A stretch of DNA of 64,000 nucleotides, taken from contig NZ_BPIM01000001.1 in the NCBI RefSeq assembly GCF_026004115.1, forward strand, positions 930,001 to 994,000. The letters are read 5' to 3'. A program made the position numbers and the translations under genes. This stretch comes from Meiothermus sp. (GTDB lineage Bacteria; Deinococcota; Deinococci; Deinococcales; Thermaceae). The notes under the pieces were generated by a model. It saw only the letters and a list, made by a program, of their open reading frames with translations, was not told the DNA's origin and made no database searches. Below are positions 1,502-21,893 of the stretch, piece after piece. Each line of letters opens with the position of its first letter. The stretch's first letter is position 1.

Positions 1502-1554
1502 TTGACGCACCCTTGACGAACCCTTAACAAGGACATCCGAACGGGGAGTACAAT
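1502..1554 (+). promoter_or_regulatory. Three heptamers at 11-bp pitch and leaderless promoter of the SARP gene
   Basis: TTGACGC (1502-1508), TTGACGA (1513-1519) and TTAACAA (1524-1530) follow each other at exactly 11 bp, separated by ACCC each time. A -10 element TACAAT (1549-1554) ends six bases before the ATG at 1561, so the transcript is probably leaderless. TTAACA at 1524 can act as a -35 with a 19-bp spacer. Direct heptamers at 11-bp pitch are the known binding mode of SARP regulators, so autoregulation is likely but inferred. Confidence 0.6.
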
Positions 1555-1560
1555 GGGCAA

Positions 1561-3663
1561 ATGCGGCTCATCAGCCTTGGCCAGGTGAGCTTGGAGGGTA
1601 CTGCCTTCTCCCGGCCCAAGCCCCTGCTGTTGCTGGCCTACCTGACTCTGGAGGGCCCGCAGGATCGCCGCCGGCTGGCCGAACTGTTCTGGAACGAGGT
1701 CGGCTCCAAGGCCCTCAGCAACCTCTCGGTGGTGCTGGCCCAGTTCAAAAAAGAGGGAGCCGCTGAGGCTTTCCCCGATAAACCGGGGGTCAACCCCCTC
1801 TCGAGCCAGGTCGGCTGCGATGCCCTGGATTTCCTCGAGGCCCTGGAAAACCAAGACCTCGAGCGGGCCATTCATCTGTACGAAGGGCCGTTTTTGCGGG
1901 ACCTGGGCAAGCCCCTGGAGACCCTGGAAGTCTCCGACGAAATCCTCGATTGGGTGCTGGAGAAGCGAGAGTCCTTTGCCCAGAAAGCCCAGATGGCGAT
2001 GCTCGAGCAGGCCGAGGAACTCGCAGAGCAGCAACGGGCCAGGGAGGCTCGAGTGCTGGCCGAGCGGGCGTACTCGCTGGCTGAAGCCCCGGAGATGGAA
2101 CCGGCCCTGCTGGCCCGCCTTCAGCGCTTGCTGGTGCAGACCGGAAGCGATCTAAGTCGACGGGCAGGCTCGGCGGCAAAGGCCAGCCTCGACGACCTGC
2201 CCGAGTCCGCTCGTAAAGTGTTTCTGGCCCTGGCCTTGCAGGATCAGCCCAACCTCACCATCGTGCGTAGCGCCCTCGAGACCTCCCTGGGCGAACTCTC
2301 CCAGGCCCAGGAAACCCTGATCCTTTCAGGGTTGGTGGATGCCAATAACCGGGTGTTGGCTGAAGAAACCGCCCGCGGCTGGCTCGAGGCCCACCCCGGC
2401 GAGCGCCTTACACTCCTGCTGGCCCTGGCCCGCAACACCCCACCCGAGATAGCTTTTACTCTATATCGCCAAATCCTCGAGCACACCCAGGGCGTGGGCG
2501 GTGTGGGCGATTTTCCTCGCGCTCGAGCGGCCTTCGCCGTTCGGGCTAAAGCCCTCATAGACGGGCTCAAGTTTGCCGAGGCGGCAGCCCTCCTGGGGCA
2601 AATTCGCGCCGTCGAGCGGGTGCTGGAAACCTACCCCGACACCGAAAGTCGCTTTCTGGAAGCCTATGCACTGGAGCGACTCGGGCGCTTCAAGGAGGCC
2701 CTGGAGCTGCTCCAAACCCTACCAGAGAAACTTCACACCCCCAGCACTACCGCCCTTAAATCGGTGCTGCTATGGCGCCGGGGGATGCCCCAGCAAGCCC
2801 AGGAGGCTGCCCTGAGCGTCCTGGAGAGCGGCGTAAGCTGGCTGTGGGCCAAGGCCATTGCCAACAATACGCTGGGCTATCTAGCTGGTTCGGAGGGGGA
2901 TTTTCTACTGGCTGCTTCACATTTCAAAAAGGCCGCGGCTTTGTTCCAGGCAGCAGGGGCCAGGGATCGCTGGGTGGGAAGCCTAAACAATTACGCCATA
3001 GAACTGGATAAAATTGCCAGAGAAGCTGAAAAGAAGGGCATGGATGCTATAGCCCTCGAGTCTGCCAGAGCCGAAGCTGAGCAAGCCTACCATCAGGCGC
3101 TGGAAGCCTTAGATCAATCGGGCGAGAATGCCCTTCTTCGGGCAAGAATTCTGCTCAACCTGGGCATTCTTTGGGAGCGCCGCAAAGACTGGGTGAGGGC
3201 TGAAGCGCATTACCTGGAGGCCGTTCCTTTTGCCGAGACAGCAGGGGCCTTAGAAATCATGGCCCGGCTGTACCTGAACCTAGGATATGTCCATTCTGCG
3301 CAGCATGATGCTTCTAAAGCCAGGTCACACTTCGGCAGCGCCCTGGACTTTGCCTCCAGGGCAGGTGAGTTGTTGACGCAGGGAGTAGCCATGGCCCACC
3401 TGGCCGACCTGGATGATGATCCGGATGTACTGGAAGTTGCTTTATCGCTGATGGAACAGAGCGGGCATCTGGATGAGGTCAGGGATTTCCTGGTGAATTA
3501 CGAGGGTGTGCTCAAACGGTTGATCAACAAGGCCCACGCCCTCGAACATCATGAAAAGGCACGGCGACTCGAGGGTCGGCTGGTGGCTTTGTACCAACAA
3601 TACCGCAAAGACGATGGTTCGGTAGGTGGCCCCGTTCAACCAGCCCCACCCCGGCGAAACTGA
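1561..3663 (+). CDS. SARP-type transcriptional regulator with BTAD and TPR region
   Basis: A 700-residue cytoplasmic regulator. Residues 1-75 form a winged-helix OmpR-like domain in the SARP style (MRLISLGQVSLEG, then LLAYLTLEGPQDRRRLAELFW). Residues about 90-200 match a bacterial transcriptional activation domain built from helical repeats. The rest, to about 690, is a run of TPR-like helices (for example NNTLGYLAGSEGDFLLAASH and LNLGILWERRKDWVRAEAHY). There is no ATPase motif. A paralogous architecture is encoded at 19148-21421. The gene has 11-bp-pitch heptamers in its own promoter, and the next gene downstream has them too, so it probably activates neighbouring lipoprotein genes. The signal it senses cannot be read from sequence. 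Confidence 0.85.
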   Translation: MRLISLGQVSLEGTAFSRPKPLLLLAYLTLEGPQDRRRLAELFWNEVGSKALSNLSVVLAQFKKEGAAEAFPDKPGVNPLSSQVGCDALDFLEALENQDLERAIHLYEGPFLRDLGKPLETLEVSDEILDWVLEKRESFAQKAQMAMLEQAEELAEQQRAREARVLAERAYSLAEAPEMEPALLARLQRLLVQTGSDLSRRAGSAAKASLDDLPESARKVFLALALQDQPNLTIVRSALETSLGELSQAQETLILSGLVDANNRVLAEETARGWLEAHPGERLTLLLALARNTPPEIAFTLYRQILEHTQGVGGVGDFPRARAAFAVRAKALIDGLKFAEAAALLGQIRAVERVLETYPDTESRFLEAYALERLGRFKEALELLQTLPEKLHTPSTTALKSVLLWRRGMPQQAQEAALSVLESGVSWLWAKAIANNTLGYLAGSEGDFLLAASHFKKAAALFQAAGARDRWVGSLNNYAIELDKIAREAEKKGMDAIALESARAEAEQAYHQALEALDQSGENALLRARILLNLGILWERRKDWVRAEAHYLEAVPFAETAGALEIMARLYLNLGYVHSAQHDASKARSHFGSALDFASRAGELLTQGVAMAHLADLDDDPDVLEVALSLMEQSGHLDEVRDFLVNYEGVLKRLINKAHALEHHEKARRLEGRLVALYQQYRKDDGSVGGPVQPAPPRRN

Positions 3664-3700: not shown

Positions 3701-3733
3701 GTTAAGAGCCCGTTAAGACCTCCCCTCTAATTT
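3701..3733 (+). promoter_or_regulatory. Putative SARP box and -10 element before the subtilisin-like gene
   Basis: GTTAAGA occurs at 3701-3707 and 3712-3718, an exact 11-bp pitch with GCCC between. After nine bases a -10 element TAATTT (3728-3733) follows. There is no usual -35, as expected where an activator replaces it. The geometry (heptamer, 4, heptamer, 9, -10) is identical to that at 18847-18879. Confidence 0.6.
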
Positions 3734-3784: not shown

Positions 3785-5368
3785 ATGAGTCGAACCGTAT
3801 TATTGTCGCTTATACCATGGGCCCTGATGGCATGTAACGTGTCCATCCTGTCGGAAGAGACAACCCTGGGCCACGAGGTGGTTGGGGCCTCCACCTCCTC
3901 CGATCCCACCGCCCGCCCGGCCTGGGGGCAGCGGGTGGGGGTTGGCGTGGGGAACCAATCCATCACCAGGGTCGAGATCAACGATGAGGCGGTGGCCTGG
4001 ACGAAGGTAGGAAGCCAGGTGGTGTTCGACCTGCCCAGTCCACCTCCCCTGCCCTCCAGTCTGCCCGGCTCACCTGCCCAGTACTCCGACCGGGCTACCG
4101 TCAAGGTTGAAGTGTTTGGTAACAATCCTAGCAATCCTTTTCTGACGAGGAACTGGACGCCCTACGGCTCGGCGGTGACCGGGGAAGTGAATGTGTTGCT
4201 GCTAACCAGCAACTGCCCTTCCCAGGACGCAAGCTTCATGGGCATGACCGTGGTCAATCGTTTTGCCGTGGAGCAGTTGTGTTTTTTTACCCTGAACATC
4301 GGCCAGCGCGACACCGTCACCACCATTCAGAACCTCAAGAACAGCTTGAGTGAACTTGCGGTAAGCCGGAACGTTTTCTTCAGCATGGATCAGGGCGGGG
4401 GGCTCAACTCCTACGACCCTACCTGTGGTCAGACCTACCACCACCTGGATCCCAATTCCTTGAACTTCCAACTTATACAGGGAAACAGCCTCAAATCGTT
4501 GGTCGGGGCCAATTTTTCCTCGGTGGGCGGCCCCACCGGCCAGGGGGTCACGGTGGCCGTGATCGGGGGTGGGGTCAACCCGGCCTGGCTGGGCAACCCC
4601 TCCCAGCTGGTGAGCGGCTACAACTTCGTCAACCCGGGCCAACCCACCACCGAGACCTTCGCCTGCGACTTCGACCGCGACGGCACCAGCGACCTGGCCG
4701 GTCACGACACCCATGTGGCTGCCATTCTTCATACCATTGCACCCCAGGCCCAGATCGTGCCGCTCAAGGTTTGCAACGGCGCAGGCGACTGCCGCTCGGC
4801 CTACATTGCCATGGCCCTGATGTACCTGATGAACCCGCCTTACAGCGGGAGGGTCATTGCCAACGCGAGCAACGGTGGCCCTTTGCCCGACGACACCATA
4901 TTTGAAATCCTTCAGCGGCCCCAGCTTAGCGACCCCACTCGTTTTTTGCTCATCGCCTCGGCGGGCAATCAAAAAGAAGCGGTCTTGCATTATCCAGGTG
5001 GTTATGCGCCTGGGGCGGCCCCTCCGGGCAGCCTGCCCAATGTGGTGTCGGTCGGGGCTTTTGGTATCAAGAGCTCGAGCGGAGCCTACGAACCTGCCGT
5101 CTTCAACACGGCTTTGAACTACGAGATACTGGCACCCGGCATTAACGTCTGCACCGATCCCGTCACCCAGTTCCGCTGCACCGCAGGGGCGGCCTACCCC
5201 GACCACCTCGGCCTGAGCGGAACCTCTTACGCAACCCCCCTCACCGCTGGGGTAGCTGCGCTTTATGCCCAGGCTAAACCCGGCCAAAACCTGCGGAACC
5301 TGCTCTTAACAAATGCAATCGCAGATGTTACCGGAACCACCCTGGGCCGCGTACAGTACAAACCTTAA
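3785..5368 (+). CDS. Subtilisin-like (S8) lipoprotein lacking the catalytic Asp motif
   Basis: The start ATG at 3785 follows GAGGTGACGAGG. The N-terminus ends in ALMAC, a lipobox, so the product of 527 residues is probably anchored outside the cell membrane. Residues about 250-500 are an S8 peptidase fold. The His motif is GHDTHVAAI near residue 306, the oxyanion Asn lies in ASAGN, and the Ser motif is SGTSYATP near residue 478. The first motif, normally VIDTGV, reads VAVIGGGV near residue 256, so the expected catalytic Asp is a glycine. It may be an inactive, binding-only member or use another carboxylate. Several cysteine pairs suit an exported protein. Its promoter carries a SARP-like box. 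Confidence 0.85.
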   Translation: MSRTVLLSLIPWALMACNVSILSEETTLGHEVVGASTSSDPTARPAWGQRVGVGVGNQSITRVEINDEAVAWTKVGSQVVFDLPSPPPLPSSLPGSPAQYSDRATVKVEVFGNNPSNPFLTRNWTPYGSAVTGEVNVLLLTSNCPSQDASFMGMTVVNRFAVEQLCFFTLNIGQRDTVTTIQNLKNSLSELAVSRNVFFSMDQGGGLNSYDPTCGQTYHHLDPNSLNFQLIQGNSLKSLVGANFSSVGGPTGQGVTVAVIGGGVNPAWLGNPSQLVSGYNFVNPGQPTTETFACDFDRDGTSDLAGHDTHVAAILHTIAPQAQIVPLKVCNGAGDCRSAYIAMALMYLMNPPYSGRVIANASNGGPLPDDTIFEILQRPQLSDPTRFLLIASAGNQKEAVLHYPGGYAPGAAPPGSLPNVVSVGAFGIKSSSGAYEPAVFNTALNYEILAPGINVCTDPVTQFRCTAGAAYPDHLGLSGTSYATPLTAGVAALYAQAKPGQNLRNLLLTNAIADVTGTTLGRVQYKP

Positions 5369-14850: not shown

Positions 14851-16446
14851 CTAAGGTGCGGTGCTGAAGTTTCGGAGCACCGAGCTGGCCTGGAAAAACG
14901 ACATATCCCAGCCAAACGCGGGGTAGCCTGCAGCCCAGGCAGGGCCTGCAAAGGCGTTGACGTTCTCGAAGGGGCCGTAGCATTGCACAAACCAGTTGTA
15001 GGTGCGGTTCGCCTCGAGCCCCGGAACCACCGTGGTGCGGTCGGTATAGAAGGTGCGGGTGGGCTGGCCTGCGCTGCTCAGGAACAAAAGGCAGGTGCTA
15101 TCGGCCGGCCGCGACCACTGCAAGGGGGTGTTGAGGGGGAGGCCGCTTTGGCCCTGGTTGGGGCTCGAGAGTCCGGGGGCTACAGGCAGCACGCGGTCAA
15201 TAAAGCCGCTGGATCCCAGGCCATTTTGCTGGAAGCTGAGGGTGCGGCCATCGGGGGCGTCGGCATAGGCGGCGAAGGTGAGGGTTTTACCCGGAATCAC
15301 CGGGGTGGCCCAGGACAGGTTTAGCGGGCTTTCGGCGTTGTTGGAGGCAATCAGGAAGAGCGAGCGGGCCTCGAGGTTCACGTAAAGCTGCCTCGAGCGC
15401 AGGGTCAGGCCGCTGGGGTTGGTCAGGTTCACGCTCAAGGCCCCGGTGCTGATGGGGGCTACGCCCACGTTCAGGCTGGCGCTCTCCCCAGGGTCGAGCG
15501 AGACCACCCGGCTGCCGTAGGCCAGAAAGGCCTCGGGGGTGCCGGGCAGGTCGGGCACGTACCGCCACTGCAGGACATACACCCGGCCCTGCACACTGCC
15601 GCTGCCGTTCCAGGCCGCGGTCAGGGTGTAGGCCGGACCCTGGCCAGGAAAGAGGGTCTGCAGGTTGTAACCGGGGGGCACAAACTGGGTCAGCCTGGCC
15701 TGGGGCGCCCCAAACACCACCTGCACCCCGGTGTTGGCGGGGTTGGGGAAGGTGATGCCGCTGCCCGATTGGGGCAGAAGGCTACCGCTCAGGCCGGCGG
15801 TCTGCTCGGCAGAAGCCCCGCCCAGGCTGGTGAAGAGCAACAAAAGGGGGTCGGGCCGGCTCAGGCCCAAAAAGATGTGCTCCTGGGTAGCAGCAGGCCG
15901 CACGGTGAGGTCGTAGGGGGGTGTGATGCCAGACAGGCTAAAGCGGCCCTCGGCGTCGGTGTTCACACACCGGCTACCCTGGCAGACCGGCACACCTGCC
16001 AGCGGCTGCCCAAAGCGGTTCTTGGCCTGGCCGCTCACGGTCATCTGGCTGCTGGCCGAAACCCCCAGGGTGAGGGTGCGCTCACGCTTGAGCACCTGGC
16101 CGTTTACGCTGGCAGTAGCCCGCACCAGCAGAGTGTACTCGCCTGCGGCCAGCTCACCGGAGGGGTTCAGGGTCAGGGTGCTGCTGCTCTGGATGGGGTT
16201 CTGGCTGAAGCTGGCACTGACGCCCAGGGTGCTGGGGATACGAACCAGCGAAAGCTGCACCTGGGCGCTGAAGCCGCCGGTTTTTTCCAGCGTGACCTCG
16301 AGGCTTCCAGTAGTACCGGCCTCGAGGTTTAGGGTGCCGGTCGAAAGGGCAATCTGAAAGTCGCCTTCCACGGGCGGGGATGGGGGGGTGGGGTTTCCAC
16401 CCGCACAACCCGCAATCAGCAGCAAAGAAAGCAAGCAGTAGCGCAT
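14851..16446 (-). CDS. Large lipoprotein with Ig-like and carboxypeptidase-regulatory-like domains
   Basis: The 531-residue product has a short signal with lipobox LLLIAGC, so it is a secreted lipoprotein. Residues about 28-125 form an Ig-like module (LSTGTLNLEAGTTGSLEVTL, NPSGELAAGEYTLLVRA). Residues about 133-190 match the carboxypeptidase regulatory-like fold (VSGQAKNRFGQPLAGVPVC, NTDAEGRFSLSGITPPYDLT). The C-terminal part has further beta-rich repeats ending in a fibronectin-like unit (QGQSGLPLNTPLQWSRPADS, RTYNWFVQCYG). It follows the next lipoprotein with a 9-base gap, in one operon started by the small gene at 18839. The ligand is unknown. Confidence 0.85.
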   Translation of the reverse strand: MRYCLLSLLLIAGCAGGNPTPPSPPVEGDFQIALSTGTLNLEAGTTGSLEVTLEKTGGFSAQVQLSLVRIPSTLGVSASFSQNPIQSSSTLTLNPSGELAAGEYTLLVRATASVNGQVLKRERTLTLGVSASSQMTVSGQAKNRFGQPLAGVPVCQGSRCVNTDAEGRFSLSGITPPYDLTVRPAATQEHIFLGLSRPDPLLLLFTSLGGASAEQTAGLSGSLLPQSGSGITFPNPANTGVQVVFGAPQARLTQFVPPGYNLQTLFPGQGPAYTLTAAWNGSGSVQGRVYVLQWRYVPDLPGTPEAFLAYGSRVVSLDPGESASLNVGVAPISTGALSVNLTNPSGLTLRSRQLYVNLEARSLFLIASNNAESPLNLSWATPVIPGKTLTFAAYADAPDGRTLSFQQNGLGSSGFIDRVLPVAPGLSSPNQGQSGLPLNTPLQWSRPADSTCLLFLSSAGQPTRTFYTDRTTVVPGLEANRTYNWFVQCYGPFENVNAFAGPAWAAGYPAFGWDMSFFQASSVLRNFSTAP

Positions 16447-16455
16447 CGGTACCTC

Positions 16456-18678
16456 CTAGTTGATGCAGGCCGGCAGCCGGAAGTCCTGGGTGGCGACCGT
16501 GGGGCGGGCCGGGGGGCCGGCATTGCCATCGGTGACCTCGAGGGTCAGCCGAAAGCGAAAACCACAGGTAGCCCCGGGATAGAGCGAGGTCAGGTTGGCG
16601 ATCATCACCGTGGGCAGGTCGGTGCCGCCGCTGGTAAAGAAAATGTTCCCCGAACCGCCCGGTACGTTCTGCTGCGTGCCGGAGATAGGGTTGCCGCTGC
16701 CGTCCAGCCGCTGGATTTTCCAGGTGTAGGTAAGCATCTGGTTCTCGTTGTCCTGCACCCAGCCCTTGAGGGCAATCTGGGTGGAGCCGATCTCGGGGTT
16801 GACCCCGGCGGGCTGGGTGATGAGGGCGCTCGGCGGGTAGTTGGCGGGGGCCGGGCTTACATTGACGTTCACCGTGGCGCTGCCCTTCTTGCCCCGGGCG
16901 TTGCTGACCTCCAGGGTCAGGGTGCGGGAGGCCGTGCTGCTGCTAAGGGTTATGGTGGGGGTACCGCAGGCGTTGGCGGGCAGGGTGTCGGCGGCCACAC
17001 TGCTCTTCCAGACCGCATTGGCGCAATTCTGGGTGCTAAGGCTGGGGTCGAGCCAGCTCCCCTGCAGGAGCACGGTCTGGCCGGCATAGAAGCCCTGACC
17101 CTGCTTGGGGTTCAGGATCTGGACGCTGGGCGGGGGGTCTTGCACGTTCAGGCTCAGGGTGGCGCTGCTGTTTAGCCCCGCGCTGTTGCTGGCGCTGGCG
17201 GTAATGGTGTGGGGGCCTTCGGTGGTGAAGGTATAGGTTAGGCAAGGCGGGTTGGCATTGGCAGCAATGCTGCCCAGGCTGCCCTCCACGCTGCTACTCA
17301 GGCTCACTGCCTTGGGCCCGTCCTGCGGATCGTAGGCGGTGGCGCAAAGGCTAAAGGGCTTGAGGAGCTGCGGCGATCCCACGCCTCCCTGCGAGAGCTT
17401 CACGCTGGACGGCTGAGGGGTGGCCTGGGCGATGGTACCCAGGTTTTTGTCGTAGACCTTCAGGTCGTAGTCCAGGCGGAACTCGATCACCTCCAGATCA
17501 ATGCCCAGATGAAAACCCAGATAGGCCTCTACCCCGGCGGAAAGCCGCCAAACGGGATTGCGCGGCACCACCGCGTCCATCTCGAGGTAGCCCCCCAGCT
17601 TGGCGTAGGGCCCCACAATGCCATAAAGCAGTACATCGGCCTTACCCAGCAGGCTCCCCCGAACCTGAGCGCCGGTGTTGGCCCCGCTCAGACCGGCGTT
17701 AAAGCTCTCGTCAAAGCTGCTGCAGTTGTTGAAACCGCTCTTGTACTCCAGACAGGCCTGGGCGTTAAGGCTCTGGGTAGCGCCAAAGCTTAGGCCCGCG
17801 CTCACCTGCCCGGTGGCGCTCACCACCATCTTCAGGCTGGGCACAAATACCAGCGGCACCGGCCCCACAAACACCGTGATGGGCGTAAAGTTGAAGCTGG
17901 CCAGTTCCTTTTCCTTATTGATGCTGTAGCCCAGCCCGGAGCTCACCTTAACCTCGGCGCTTTGCTTTATGCCGTAGGCTGCCTTGAAGTAGACCCCGTT
18001 GGGGTAGGCGGGCACCCCAAAGACCTTCTTCCAGCTTACCCCGGCGCTAAAACCGTTCTGCACGTCGAAGAAGACCTTGCCCGAGACCCGCACCTGGTCG
18101 TTTGTGGTGGACGGGTTGTTGTCCTGGTCGTAGAGCACCTCGTCGAAGCTAAAGTCCAGGGTGGCCATGGGCCTGACCCCACCCTGGGCGCTGTAGGAGG
18201 TGAGGCCGCCGGCAAAGCGCACGCTCTGGGCCAGGGCCTGGGCCGATTGCAGGTCGGAGGGGGTGAGGGTCTTCTGGAACTCGGCCTCGCCTTGCTCGAG
18301 GGCCTCGCCAAGGTCGGCTTCCTCGGTCTGCACGGTTACGGTGTTGCCCGCGCGGCTGATGCCCTTGACCTTTTGCAGGAGGCCGTAGGGGGCCGCTGGG
18401 GTGGGCTCGCTCACCAGCACCTGTCCGACCTCGAGGGCCTGGAGCTGGGGGTTGTCGGCGCTAAAGATGAGGGTGGCCTGGCAGAGCGGGCGGTTCTGGT
18501 TGGTGTAGTCCAGGCAGGCCGGGGCGTTGGTGAGGGCGAAGCTGGACAAAGACGCCTGGCTCTGGGGGTTTAGCACCCGGGTATCGGGGTCGATTTTGGG
18601 CTCAATCCGGCTGGGGGGGCCACCCCCACAGGCCGCGAGCAGCAGGGCTAGGGCTGCGATTTTAGCTGGGTAGCGCAT
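16456..18678 (-). CDS. Large lipoprotein with PKD/Ig-like repeats
   Basis: The 740-residue product has a lipobox (LALLLAACGGG). Residues about 170-420 are a beta-rich region with no family I recognise, containing many aromatic and glycine-rich strands (VFFDVQNGFSAGVSWKKVFG, GPYAKLGGYLEMDAVV). Residues about 430-740 hold three PKD/Ig-like modules (EGPHTITASASNSAGLNSSA, RTLTLEVSNARGKKGSATVN, LTLEVTDGNAG). The start lies inside the upstream 63-residue gene (31-base overlap), so translation is probably coupled. A surface structural or binding role is inferred. Confidence 0.85.
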   Translation of the reverse strand: MRYPAKIAALALLLAACGGGPPSRIEPKIDPDTRVLNPQSQASLSSFALTNAPACLDYTNQNRPLCQATLIFSADNPQLQALEVGQVLVSEPTPAAPYGLLQKVKGISRAGNTVTVQTEEADLGEALEQGEAEFQKTLTPSDLQSAQALAQSVRFAGGLTSYSAQGGVRPMATLDFSFDEVLYDQDNNPSTTNDQVRVSGKVFFDVQNGFSAGVSWKKVFGVPAYPNGVYFKAAYGIKQSAEVKVSSGLGYSINKEKELASFNFTPITVFVGPVPLVFVPSLKMVVSATGQVSAGLSFGATQSLNAQACLEYKSGFNNCSSFDESFNAGLSGANTGAQVRGSLLGKADVLLYGIVGPYAKLGGYLEMDAVVPRNPVWRLSAGVEAYLGFHLGIDLEVIEFRLDYDLKVYDKNLGTIAQATPQPSSVKLSQGGVGSPQLLKPFSLCATAYDPQDGPKAVSLSSSVEGSLGSIAANANPPCLTYTFTTEGPHTITASASNSAGLNSSATLSLNVQDPPPSVQILNPKQGQGFYAGQTVLLQGSWLDPSLSTQNCANAVWKSSVAADTLPANACGTPTITLSSSTASRTLTLEVSNARGKKGSATVNVNVSPAPANYPPSALITQPAGVNPEIGSTQIALKGWVQDNENQMLTYTWKIQRLDGSGNPISGTQQNVPGGSGNIFFTSGGTDLPTVMIANLTSLYPGATCGFRFRLTLEVTDGNAGPPARPTVATQDFRLPACIN

Positions 18679-18839
18679 GCTTCCTCCTTTGCACGCTCGA
18701 GGGCTGCCACCAGATCTTCCAGGCGGGCAAAGTTGTACCGGGCTCCGCCCCGCAAGGGTTCAAGGCTGAAGCGCCACTGCTGCTCGCCGTCGCTCCACAT
18801 GCGGAGCACATAGCACTGTTCCTGGTGGCCCTCTGGCAT
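18648..18839 (-). CDS. Small conserved protein leading the lipoprotein operon
   Basis: A 63-residue protein without signal sequence, with the pattern CYVLRMWSDGEQQWRFSLE followed by an acidic amphipathic helix (RLEDLVAALERAKEEAC). Similar small proteins (a W-R-x-SLE core, then a FxxLEdLvaaLe helix) are, from memory, widespread in Deinococcus-Thermus and Chloroflexi and of unknown function. It starts seven bases after a -10 element TACGCT, so it is probably leaderless, and it overlaps the next lipoprotein gene by 31 bases. It may be a cytosolic partner or regulator of the operon. Confidence 0.75.
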   Translation of the reverse strand: MPEGHQEQCYVLRMWSDGEQQWRFSLEPLRGGARYNFARLEDLVAALERAKEEACATQLKSQP

Positions 18840-18846
18840 GGCAACC

Positions 18847-18879
18847 AGCGTAGAAGGGGGGGCGTCAATTGAGCGTCAA
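18847..18879 (-). promoter_or_regulatory. Putative SARP box and leaderless promoter of the lipoprotein operon
   Basis: On the minus strand TTGACGC occurs at 18879-18873 and again at 18868-18862, an exact 11-bp pitch with TCAA between. Nine bases later the -10 element TACGCT (18852-18847) follows, and seven bases after that the ATG at 18839. The heptamer is identical to the first one before the SARP gene at 1561. Confidence 0.65.
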
Positions 18880-19147: not shown

Positions 19148-21421
19148 CTAGCGCAGGCTCCGAGGTAACCCTTCGAGCTGGCTTTGCCAGAGTTCCTGAG
19201 CCCTCCGCACCGCGGCAGTAGCCTGGAGGTGTTGCCCCAGGTGGGCATGGGCCTCGCCCAGCAGGCGGTGGGCGGGCACGCTCAGGCAGAGGGTTTCCAG
19301 GGCCAAGGCCCGGGCCAGCGGCTCGGGATCGGGAGAACTCCGCAGGAGCGAAAGCCGCAAAGCACCCATCTGCCAGGCCAGGTGCTGCACCGGGGTCTGG
19401 GGCCGGCAGCAGGCGAGAAGGCGCTCGAGTAAGTTTTCCTTTCGGCCAAGCGCCAGCAGGTCGAACTCGGCGCCCATGGCCAGGTCGTCCAAGCGGGCTT
19501 CCCGCAAGCTGGGTAGCAGGGTCTCGATGGGCCCGGTTTCCTCTGGGCAGCGCCAGAGACCCAGCAAGGCCCGGTTGTAGCGGCAGGCCCACAAAAGCCG
19601 CTCGTCCTGGGCCGCCTGGGCCAGCCTCGAGGCCTCTTCCAGCCGGCCTTCGGCCTCCGGGTAGACCGCCAAATAGCTCAGCAGCTCGACCTGCACCAAC
19701 AAGACCTGGGCCTGCAAACCGGGGCCCAGGGGCCGGGCCAGCTCGAGGGCTTCCTCGAGGGTGTTCCAGGCCGGGCCGAACTGCCCCTGCAAAAAGTACA
19801 GGTAGCCCAGGTTGCGATAGCTGGTGGTCTCGGTACGGGCATCACCCAAACTACGCGACAGCTCGATGGCCTCGGTAAAGCGTTTTGTGGCCTGGGCGTA
19901 GCGGCCCAAGCGCAAGGTAGTGGCGGCCAGGTTTTGTAGCAGACTTCCTGCCAAGGCCAGCTGTCCCTCCCGCCGGGCCAGGGTCAGGGCTTCTTCAAAA
20001 GAGGCCTCGGAAGCCTCGTACTCACCTCGCAGACCGAACAAGGCCCCCAGGTTGCTCAGCGCCCGCAGGCGGGTCTGGGAGCTTTGGGCCCGTGCGGCGG
20101 CCTCCAGATGGGGCCTGGCCTCCTCCAACGCCCCAGCTACCAGATGGGCCGCCCCTAAAGAAAGCCGGGCCAAAGAGATTCGCTCCCCATCGCACAACCG
20201 CCGGGCTACTTCCAGGGCTTCCAGCGCCTCCAGGGCGGACTCCTGGGGTCTGCCCTGCCGCAGCCGAAGCCCGGCCCTACGCTGGTGGTGTTCGAAGTAG
20301 ATCGAATCGCTCTGCGTGCACCTTGCCAGTACGCCCAGCCGCTCCACCAGGGCGTCCAGTAGGGCCAGGTTGCTCTGCTGCTCGGCGAGCTGGCTCAGGT
20401 GTAAAAGGGCTTCCACAGCCTCCGCTTCGCCGCTCACCCAGAGGGCCTGAAAGAAAGCGAGTTGGGCCTCATTCGGCTTGCCCCGCTGCAACGCCAGCCG
20501 GCCTGCGGCCAACAAGTGGGGGTAGGCCCGCTCCGGCTCCAAAGCCCACAACCAGTAGCGAGCTGTGGCACTGGGCTCTCCCCTCTGCGCTTCCAGGGCC
20601 AGCGCAATCCGGCGGCATAGATGCTGGCGCAGGGCCTTGGGCAAAAGGAGTGGGGGCGGGGCGGCCTCGAGCTCTGCCCACGCCCGCGCTACTGCGTAGG
20701 GCTCCTCTTCCAGCACCATAGCCCAGAACTCGGGACGAACCTCCTCCGCATAAAGGCTTCGGGCCTCCCAGAGGCGCTGGGCCAATGGATCCAAGACCGC
20801 GGACTGGAGTAAGGCCGCCTGGGCCTGGGTGGCCGCCAGGGGCTCCATACCCAGCTCCTGCCAGAGGGACTGGCGCAGGTTCTCGTAAAGCTGCCAGGCT
20901 GCCTGCACCCGCCCAGCCCTGGACTCCAGGCGCATGGCCTCGCGCACCGCGCTCTCGTGCAGGGGATCGAGCTGGATAAGCTCATAAAGGTACCCCAGCG
21001 CTTGCTCCGGCTGGTTCTGCGCGGCCTGCCAGAGCCGCTCGCGGCGCAGCTCCTCCAGCCTTTGGCGCTCGAGGGCCAGCCACTCCCAAAACGCAGGGGG
21101 CAGATCATCCGGCAGACCCCGCAAAAGCGGCTCGCGCAAAGCCTCCAGGGTGGGTGCCTGCGCGTCTACCTCGGCGTACAGCGCGGGCTGCTCCCCGTCT
21201 AGCAACCACGTCCCGGCCCCTGGCAGCCGACGCAGCAGGTACAGGGCCTGCCGCAGGTTTTGCGCTGCGTTTTTGGCCCACAGCAGCTCGGCCACCTCGC
21301 GCCGGCTGAGACCCCCGCCCAGCGCCAGCACCCCCAGCAAGGCCCACTGGCGGCCCTTAAGGGAGAGAGCTTCACCCTGCCAGAGGGCTTCGGGCGAGCC
21401 CAGGAGCCTGAGGCGCAGCAT
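19148..21421 (-). CDS. SARP/BTAD-type regulator with long TPR region
   Basis: A 757-residue cytoplasmic regulator. Residues 1-80 are a SARP winged helix (MLRLRLLGSPEALWQGEALS, RQWALLGVLALGGGLSRREVAELLW). Residues about 100-220 are a BTAD helical domain (YLYELIQLDPLHESAVREAMRL). The rest is TPR-like (SLLQNLAATTLRLGRYAQAT, SYRNLGYLYFLQGQFGPAWN). No NB-ARC ATPase is present. The start at 21421 begins directly at the conserved winged-helix sequence; an ATG at 21430 is equally possible. Lying 309 bases downstream of the operon at 18839, it is a candidate activator for those lipoprotein genes. Confidence 0.85.
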   Translation of the reverse strand: MLRLRLLGSPEALWQGEALSLKGRQWALLGVLALGGGLSRREVAELLWAKNAAQNLRQALYLLRRLPGAGTWLLDGEQPALYAEVDAQAPTLEALREPLLRGLPDDLPPAFWEWLALERQRLEELRRERLWQAAQNQPEQALGYLYELIQLDPLHESAVREAMRLESRAGRVQAAWQLYENLRQSLWQELGMEPLAATQAQAALLQSAVLDPLAQRLWEARSLYAEEVRPEFWAMVLEEEPYAVARAWAELEAAPPPLLLPKALRQHLCRRIALALEAQRGEPSATARYWLWALEPERAYPHLLAAGRLALQRGKPNEAQLAFFQALWVSGEAEAVEALLHLSQLAEQQSNLALLDALVERLGVLARCTQSDSIYFEHHQRRAGLRLRQGRPQESALEALEALEVARRLCDGERISLARLSLGAAHLVAGALEEARPHLEAAARAQSSQTRLRALSNLGALFGLRGEYEASEASFEEALTLARREGQLALAGSLLQNLAATTLRLGRYAQATKRFTEAIELSRSLGDARTETTSYRNLGYLYFLQGQFGPAWNTLEEALELARPLGPGLQAQVLLVQVELLSYLAVYPEAEGRLEEASRLAQAAQDERLLWACRYNRALLGLWRCPEETGPIETLLPSLREARLDDLAMGAEFDLLALGRKENLLERLLACCRPQTPVQHLAWQMGALRLSLLRSSPDPEPLARALALETLCLSVPAHRLLGEAHAHLGQHLQATAAVRRAQELWQSQLEGLPRSLR

Positions 21422-21476
21422 GGCTTTCATCCTACTGGTGTTTGGCCATAGTACCACAAAGCCAGAGCTCGAGGGG

Positions 21477-21893
21477 CTAAAAAAAGCGTTGTACGCTCCG
21501 GGAGAGCTCAAAACCCCGCTTATCTTTGTTGATGCAGCGCAGCCGGGCCTGGGTCACGTCGCAGCGAAAACCGCCTTCGCTCCAGACCTTGCCGTAGGCC
21601 AGCACCGGCAGGCGGGGGTCGGCCACGGTATCCCCTACACAGAGCCGGGTGGCCTGGCCCCGCTCGCTCAGGCCAAAGGCATTACCCCAGTCCAGCGAGC
21701 AGTCTTTGGGCTTGGCCGGTAGGCGGGCCTGGTTTTGCAACAGGTCGCAGCGCAGCACCGCCTCATCCGCTACCCGGTCCACATAAGCAAAGCAGTGAAT
21801 GTTGCCCGAGGGGGTCTTAAAGCCCCCCAGCTCAAAGTAGCCCTGGGCCAGGGCCGGAAACAGCAAAAACGCCAGGAAAATCAGGTTTTTCAT
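21477..21893 (-). CDS. Secreted DUF6636-like protein
   Basis: A 138-residue exported protein with a signal peptide (MKNLIFLAFLLFPALAQG) and then FKTPSGNIHCFAYVD, the hallmark I associate with DUF6636. Six cysteines after the signal region (for example LRCDLLQ, RLCVGDT, FRCDVTQARLRC) suggest disulfides. It ends an apparent three-gene operon (22925 to 21477) with gaps of only three bases. Function is unknown. Confidence 0.75.
   Translation of the reverse strand: MKNLIFLAFLLFPALAQGYFELGGFKTPSGNIHCFAYVDRVADEAVLRCDLLQNQARLPAKPKDCSLDWGNAFGLSERGQATRLCVGDTVADPRLPVLAYGKVWSEGGFRCDVTQARLRCINKDKRGFELSRSVQRFF

Follow-up and report, generated by a model that had tools for sequence, protein, structure and literature searches.

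The window, i.e. the whole stretch of Meiothermus sp. DNA analysed here (64,000 nucleotides), carries on its minus strand a BTAD/TPR regulator gene, a short promoter region, and an operon encoding a small protein and two lipoproteins. A second regulator, a second promoter of the same geometry, and a subtilase-type lipoprotein lie on the plus strand. The coordinates of these features are summarized in Table 1.

Table 1. Features of the focal promoter, its neighbouring genes, and the second regulator locus, in window coordinates.
Feature	Position	Strand	Remarks
First heptamer, TTGACGC	18879-18873	-	
Linker, TCAA	18872-18869	-	
Second heptamer, TTGACGC	18868-18862	-	
Predicted operator of adjacent BTAD regulator, paired TTGACGC-TCAA-TTGACGC	18862-18879	-	Basis: sequence, shuffles, genome search, five relatives
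-10 element, TACGCT	18847-18852	-	9 bp from second heptamer, 7 bp before ATG (18839-18837); leaderless type; TANNNT conserved in relatives
BTAD/TPR regulator, proposed activator at 18862-18879	19148-21511	-	787 aa as listed; BTAD E=2.2e-10, TPR; orthologues adjoin same box
Small protein, first gene of operon	18648-18839	-	63 aa; no Pfam/NCBIfam family; predicted beta-beta-beta-alpha
Lipoprotein	16456-18678	-	740 aa; weak Ig/PKD-like domain matches; start overlaps end of small-protein gene
Lipoprotein, next operon gene	14851-16446	-	531 aa
Second box, GTTAAGA-GCCC-GTTAAGA-N9-TAATTT	3701-3733	+	Same geometry
Second-class regulator, proposed activator at 3701	1561-3663	+	Helix NLSVVL
Subtilase-type lipoprotein, target of 3701 box	3785-5368	+	
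Three repeats, TTGACGC/TTGACGA/TTAACAA, upstream of regulator 1561	1502-1530	+	11-bp pitch; conserved in G017 and L199

The focal promoter and its neighbours

Read on the minus strand from 18879 to 18837, the promoter region is TTGACGC TCAA TTGACGC CCCCCCTTC TACGCT GGTTGCC ATG, and the description given in the first-pass annotation (TTGACGC twice at 11-bp pitch, nine bases, TACGCT, seven bases, ATG) is exact for that strand. With up to three mismatches allowed, the window contains the full pattern a single time, and 100 dinucleotide shuffles do not produce it at all. Genome-wide tests took the form of pattern searches and of stretches of genome; the focal site is the only exact TTGACGC-N4-TTGACGC in the 3.35-Mb genome, and allowing one mismatch in the TTGACGC pair adds only that at 1502 to the one at 18862. 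A wider TTGACGC regulon was considered and rejected: matches with two mismatches number 16 versus 19 in a reversed control, and besides the focal site only pstS and a short membrane-protein gene have a -10 element in place.

The regulator gene at 19148-21511 is transcribed from the same strand as the box, ends 268 bp upstream of it, and probably has its true start near 21430-21421. Its BTAD (PF03704) scores 41.5 bits against a cut-off of 22.1, no NTPase domain was found in the domain search, and the Meiothermus genome holds 15 BTAD matches. As a lone query the protein retrieved TPR proteins only, with no AfsR match; its N-terminus aligns with class-A regulators, and the profile of class-A relatives matches AfsR residues 25-109 (E=0.00045-0.004), a weak homology of the DNA-binding domain. 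Downstream of the box, the gene for the 740-aa lipoprotein is preceded by an AAGGAGG site. A simple lipobox motif, which missed the subtilase lipoprotein at 3785, detected a lipobox protein within 4.5 kb downstream of the genome's own regulators at 11 of 15 loci, versus 2 of 9 segments taken from the window as controls.

At the second locus, the spacing of the 3701-3733 box is identical to that at 18847-18879, as had been noted previously. The accompanying claim that the focal heptamer also stands before the 1561 regulator holds for one of the three repeats there (TTGACGC, 1502-1508); TTGACGA and TTAACAA follow, and the last repeat is 18 bp, not 9, from TACAAT. The TTGACGC regulator may control this promoter, although the distance to the -10 does not fit. 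The 1561-3663 regulator has no PF03704 match at E=0.01 in Pfam, and its N-terminus aligns with class-A regulators in a comparison that is partly circular, the alignment having included this N-terminus.

Conservation of the box and its association with regulator class

Five other genomes of the genus have an orthologue of the 19148-21511 regulator, 69-94% identical across the matched portion, and in each the box lies directly behind the gene: a first heptamer TTGACGC or TTGACAC, a second heptamer TTGACGC, a run of C, TACNCT, and an ATG 6-7 bp further on. The box is nearly invariant, whereas the intergenic DNA upstream of it does not align between relatives and varies in length. The same spacing is found at a 42% identical homologue in G017 (TTGACGG-CCAA-TTGACAC-N9-TACCCT), and L175, distantly related and of a different family, has TTGACAC twice. 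Two genomes, G008 and G021, have the regulator orthologue split into two frames (L051/L056 and L052/L057) with the TTGACGC box intact behind it.

The general pattern ACGC-N7-ACGC-N9-TANNNT has 9 matches in the focal organism's own genome, versus none for the reversed pattern, and approximately 125 versus 11 in 50 genomes of the family. Paired heptamers lie near the target or the regulator gene at nearly every regulator locus of this genome (the BTAD matches plus 1561), and comprise GCCACGC, GCAACGC, GGAACGC, GTGACGC/GCGACAC, GAGACGC/GAAACGC, ATGACGT/GTGACGC, ATAACG pairs, GTCATCT/GTCATGC, CACTTAC repeats, TTGACGC, and GTTAAGA; these were read by eye, some with an imperfect -10 or a 10-bp pitch, and are weaker evidence than the scans. 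One regulator locus (L038) has four boxes (2615, 5314, 6961, and 9644) with three heptamers, namely ATAACGC before the regulator, GAAACGC/GAAACAC twice, and GCAACGC before the small protein. One entire regulator-small protein-secreted protein module is nearly duplicated between the chromosome (L036) and the 35.5-kb contig C3 (L039). Near-identical secreted-protein genes follow ATAACGC pairs and TATATT at C1:1686820 and C2:10834 (L064 and L066), the C1 copy having an early in-frame stop codon.

To score boxes independently of heptamer sequence, we assembled a set of 144 distinct regulators, recruited through homology or through a neighbouring small protein, and the 200 bp downstream of each were scanned for any heptamer repeat at 11 bp with TANNNT 9 bp later, the ACG core being ignored. 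Scores of at least 10 were obtained for 62 regulators versus 17 in the reversed control, and the top score of 12 for 16 versus none; many of the 144 have no convincing box within 200 bp downstream. Among the blind-scan boxes, an ACG core is present behind 35 of 43 regulators with an Arg at the third position of the recognition-helix NLR motif, which aligns with AfsR R87, and behind none of the 19 without it (Fisher 5e-10). After clustering at 60% identity the association persists (20/28 versus 0/7, p=0.001); at 45% it is not significant (16/23 versus 0/2, p=0.12), there being too few non-Arg clusters. Since AfsR R87 contacts phosphates rather than bases in the AfsR structure (PMC10936776), the helix Arg may mark a subfamily rather than read a base. 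A one-residue code, in which Tyr at the position of AfsR S91 would correspond to G at heptamer position 3, fits the focal genome, but was discarded on the counterexamples L145 (Tyr, GGAACG), L239 (Tyr, GCCACGC), and L241 (His, TTGACGC).

Behind the Thermaceae relatives of the 1561 regulator (helix NSLSVAL and similar) stand boxes of the GTTAAGA, GTTCAGG, or GTTAAGG type and no ACG boxes. A strict GTTMAGR pair with a -10 element has 4 matches in 50 genomes and none when reversed; three of these matches are immediately downstream of a 1561-class regulator. Given these class-specific heptamers, the identical spacing at the two loci points to a common mechanism, and the heptamer to the particular regulator.

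A proposed SARP-type operator and its alternatives

The focal site is a real, conserved SARP-type promoter, one among many parallel modules, and the neighbouring regulator most likely binds at the double TTGACGC, within a switch module repeated across Meiothermus and other Deinococcota. The earlier suggestion that paired heptamers mark a regulated promoter for surface lipoproteins is well supported by the conserved footprint, the genome-wide enrichment, and the lipoproteins found behind most such regulators. Like the protein proposed here, the SARPs of Streptomyces (AfsR, ActII-ORF4, and PimR) combine an N-terminal winged helix with a BTAD, often followed by NB-ARC and TPR regions, and their operators are paired or triple heptamers at 11 bp with a poor -35 (PMC10936776, PMC5930380). 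In such operators the last, 3' repeat is 8 bp from the -10 (PMC10936776); at the focal box the pitch is 11 bp and the distance to the -10 is 9 bp from TTGACGC, or 8 bp when the heptamer is shifted by one base towards the -10. Two AfsR protomers sit side by side on 11-bp-spaced repeats and hold on to sigma region 4, substituting for a -35 contact (PMC10936776). Unlike Streptomyces SARPs, the regulators described here have lipoproteins, secreted proteins, and the small protein as predicted targets rather than antibiotic clusters, several of their promoters are leaderless, and a genome may hold many such modules in parallel, built on several different heptamer cores, in Deinococcota and Chloroflexota. 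Leaderless promoters with a -10 element 6-7 bp before the start codon are common in Deinococcus-Thermus, and the focal -10, seven bases before the ATG, fits this type; such promoters have been described by the -10 alone (PMC12340547), to which the focal promoter adds a two-repeat operator upstream.

By analogy with AfsR and other SARPs, from which we infer binding, dimer arrangement, and activation, two protomers of the 19148-21511 regulator would lie side by side on the two TTGACGC heptamers, replacing a -35 element, and would bring RNA polymerase to the -10 element, TACGCT. The resulting message would be leaderless, its 5' end at or beside the ATG, and would extend through the 63-aa protein gene into the two lipoprotein genes. 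The 3701 box would work in parallel, under a separate regulator belonging to a different class. We regard this reading, a SARP-type operator-promoter served by the adjacent BTAD/TPR regulator with a parallel arrangement at 3701, as clearly probable.

OmpR/PhoB-family sites are also 11-bp direct repeats, and the main competing explanation is that the focal repeats form a Pho-type box bound by a PhoB/PhoP response regulator, which would make the operon phosphate-responsive. PhoB-type boxes have the same 11-bp geometry near the -10, overlapping the -35, and in this genome TTGACAA-GGCC-TTGACGC stands approximately 10 bp before TACTCT in the pstS promoter, the corresponding promoters of relatives having ATGACAC/ATGACAA or TTGACAA/ATGACTT, so that Pho boxes here would have the geometry and part of the sequence in common with the focal box. 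AfsR and PhoP moreover have a common site in Streptomyces (PMC10972967), and cross-talk between Pho and the focal box is possible. Pho boxes differ, however, in their response-regulator proteins, pst context, and heptamer ends, and have no linked BTAD regulator. The focal heptamers are TTGACGC, not (T/A)TGACAN, and end in GC in nearly all relatives, whereas pst sites mostly end in AN; the genes downstream encode lipoproteins; and the focal box travels with the adjacent BTAD regulator, while the heptamers of sister loci differ and track their own regulators. A Pho-type box is accordingly improbable.

More remote still are two further explanations, to both of which we give very little weight. 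One is the proposal of the first-pass annotation that a single regulator governs one surface-lipoprotein regulon including both loci. The identical geometry at 18847 and 3701 and the one TTGACGC upstream of the 1561 regulator would agree with it, but the two boxes differ in heptamer, each lies by a separate regulator, the two being of different classes, and the genome has no further TTGACGC pairs within one mismatch. Because regulator class predicts the heptamer across the phylum, and the boxes differ in both heptamer and regulator, parallel local regulator-operon pairs account for the loci better than one regulon. The other is an ordinary sigma-70 promoter with an incidental repeat, in which TTGACG, similar to the -35 consensus, would serve as the -35 hexamer; its copies are 21 bp (first) and 10 bp (second) from TACGCT, neither near 17, and sister boxes of the same geometry (GCCACGC, GGAACGC, ATAACGC) are unlike a -35.

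The pstS promoter repeats (L007 1501-1560, C1:523993-524052 of this genome) are themselves a candidate Pho box of Deinococcota.

The small-protein family and the wider module

SARP regulation is known as a switch of antibiotic clusters in actinomycetes, and the literature describes one SARP-type regulator in Deinococcus deserti, with targets unknown. Our literature search found no paper tying Deinococcota BTAD/SARP regulators to operators, and no description of a module consisting of regulator, paired-repeat promoter, tiny protein, and surface lipoproteins. Many surface-protein operons of thermophilic Deinococcota appear to use the same logic at their promoters, each regulator class having a readable operator and an uncharacterised small protein as its usual first gene. 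This offers predicted targets for regulators that are now without any, natural data on a DNA-recognition code, and a concrete uncharacterised protein family.

Eight small proteins beside regulators of the focal genome align as one family, which has 12 copies in this genome, is present in 56 of 111 Deinococcota genomes, and has no match at a useful score in Pfam or NCBIfam. In a single-sequence model (pLDDT 77) the protein is predicted to fold into three strands and one helix; a PDB fold search with the small protein gave no match below E=0.3, and a public-genome scan with one small protein as query gave no matches. Members often follow such a box closely: 29 of 99 Thermaceae family members have an exact-core box within 250 bp upstream, mostly at 7-45 bp, where 0.02 would be expected, and none has one on the opposite strand. 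Of 53 regions outside the focal genome picked by the small protein alone, 33 hold such a regulator, which in most of them ends just upstream of the small protein on the same strand. Named records carrying the module include Meiothermus, Calidithermus, Trueperaceae, Deinococcales, and one betaproteobacterial MAG (L327), and it is also present in Chloroflexota in a divergent arrangement (L332, L333, L340, and L341).

One tentative idea, which we think rather unlikely to be correct, is that the approximately 60-aa protein acts as a partner dedicated to its SARP-type regulator, e.g. an anti-activator binding to the TPR or to the NTPase part and so limiting its own operon. If true, this would constitute a widespread, undescribed feedback circuit controlling the cell surface in Deinococcota and Chloroflexota.

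In genus g4 of the family (G022-G048), the small protein is present in only 1 of 27 genomes and regulators of the 1561 class are still common; several of these genomes have a conserved site, ACGCCCCCGTAACGCCCC...TTAGGGT, in common.
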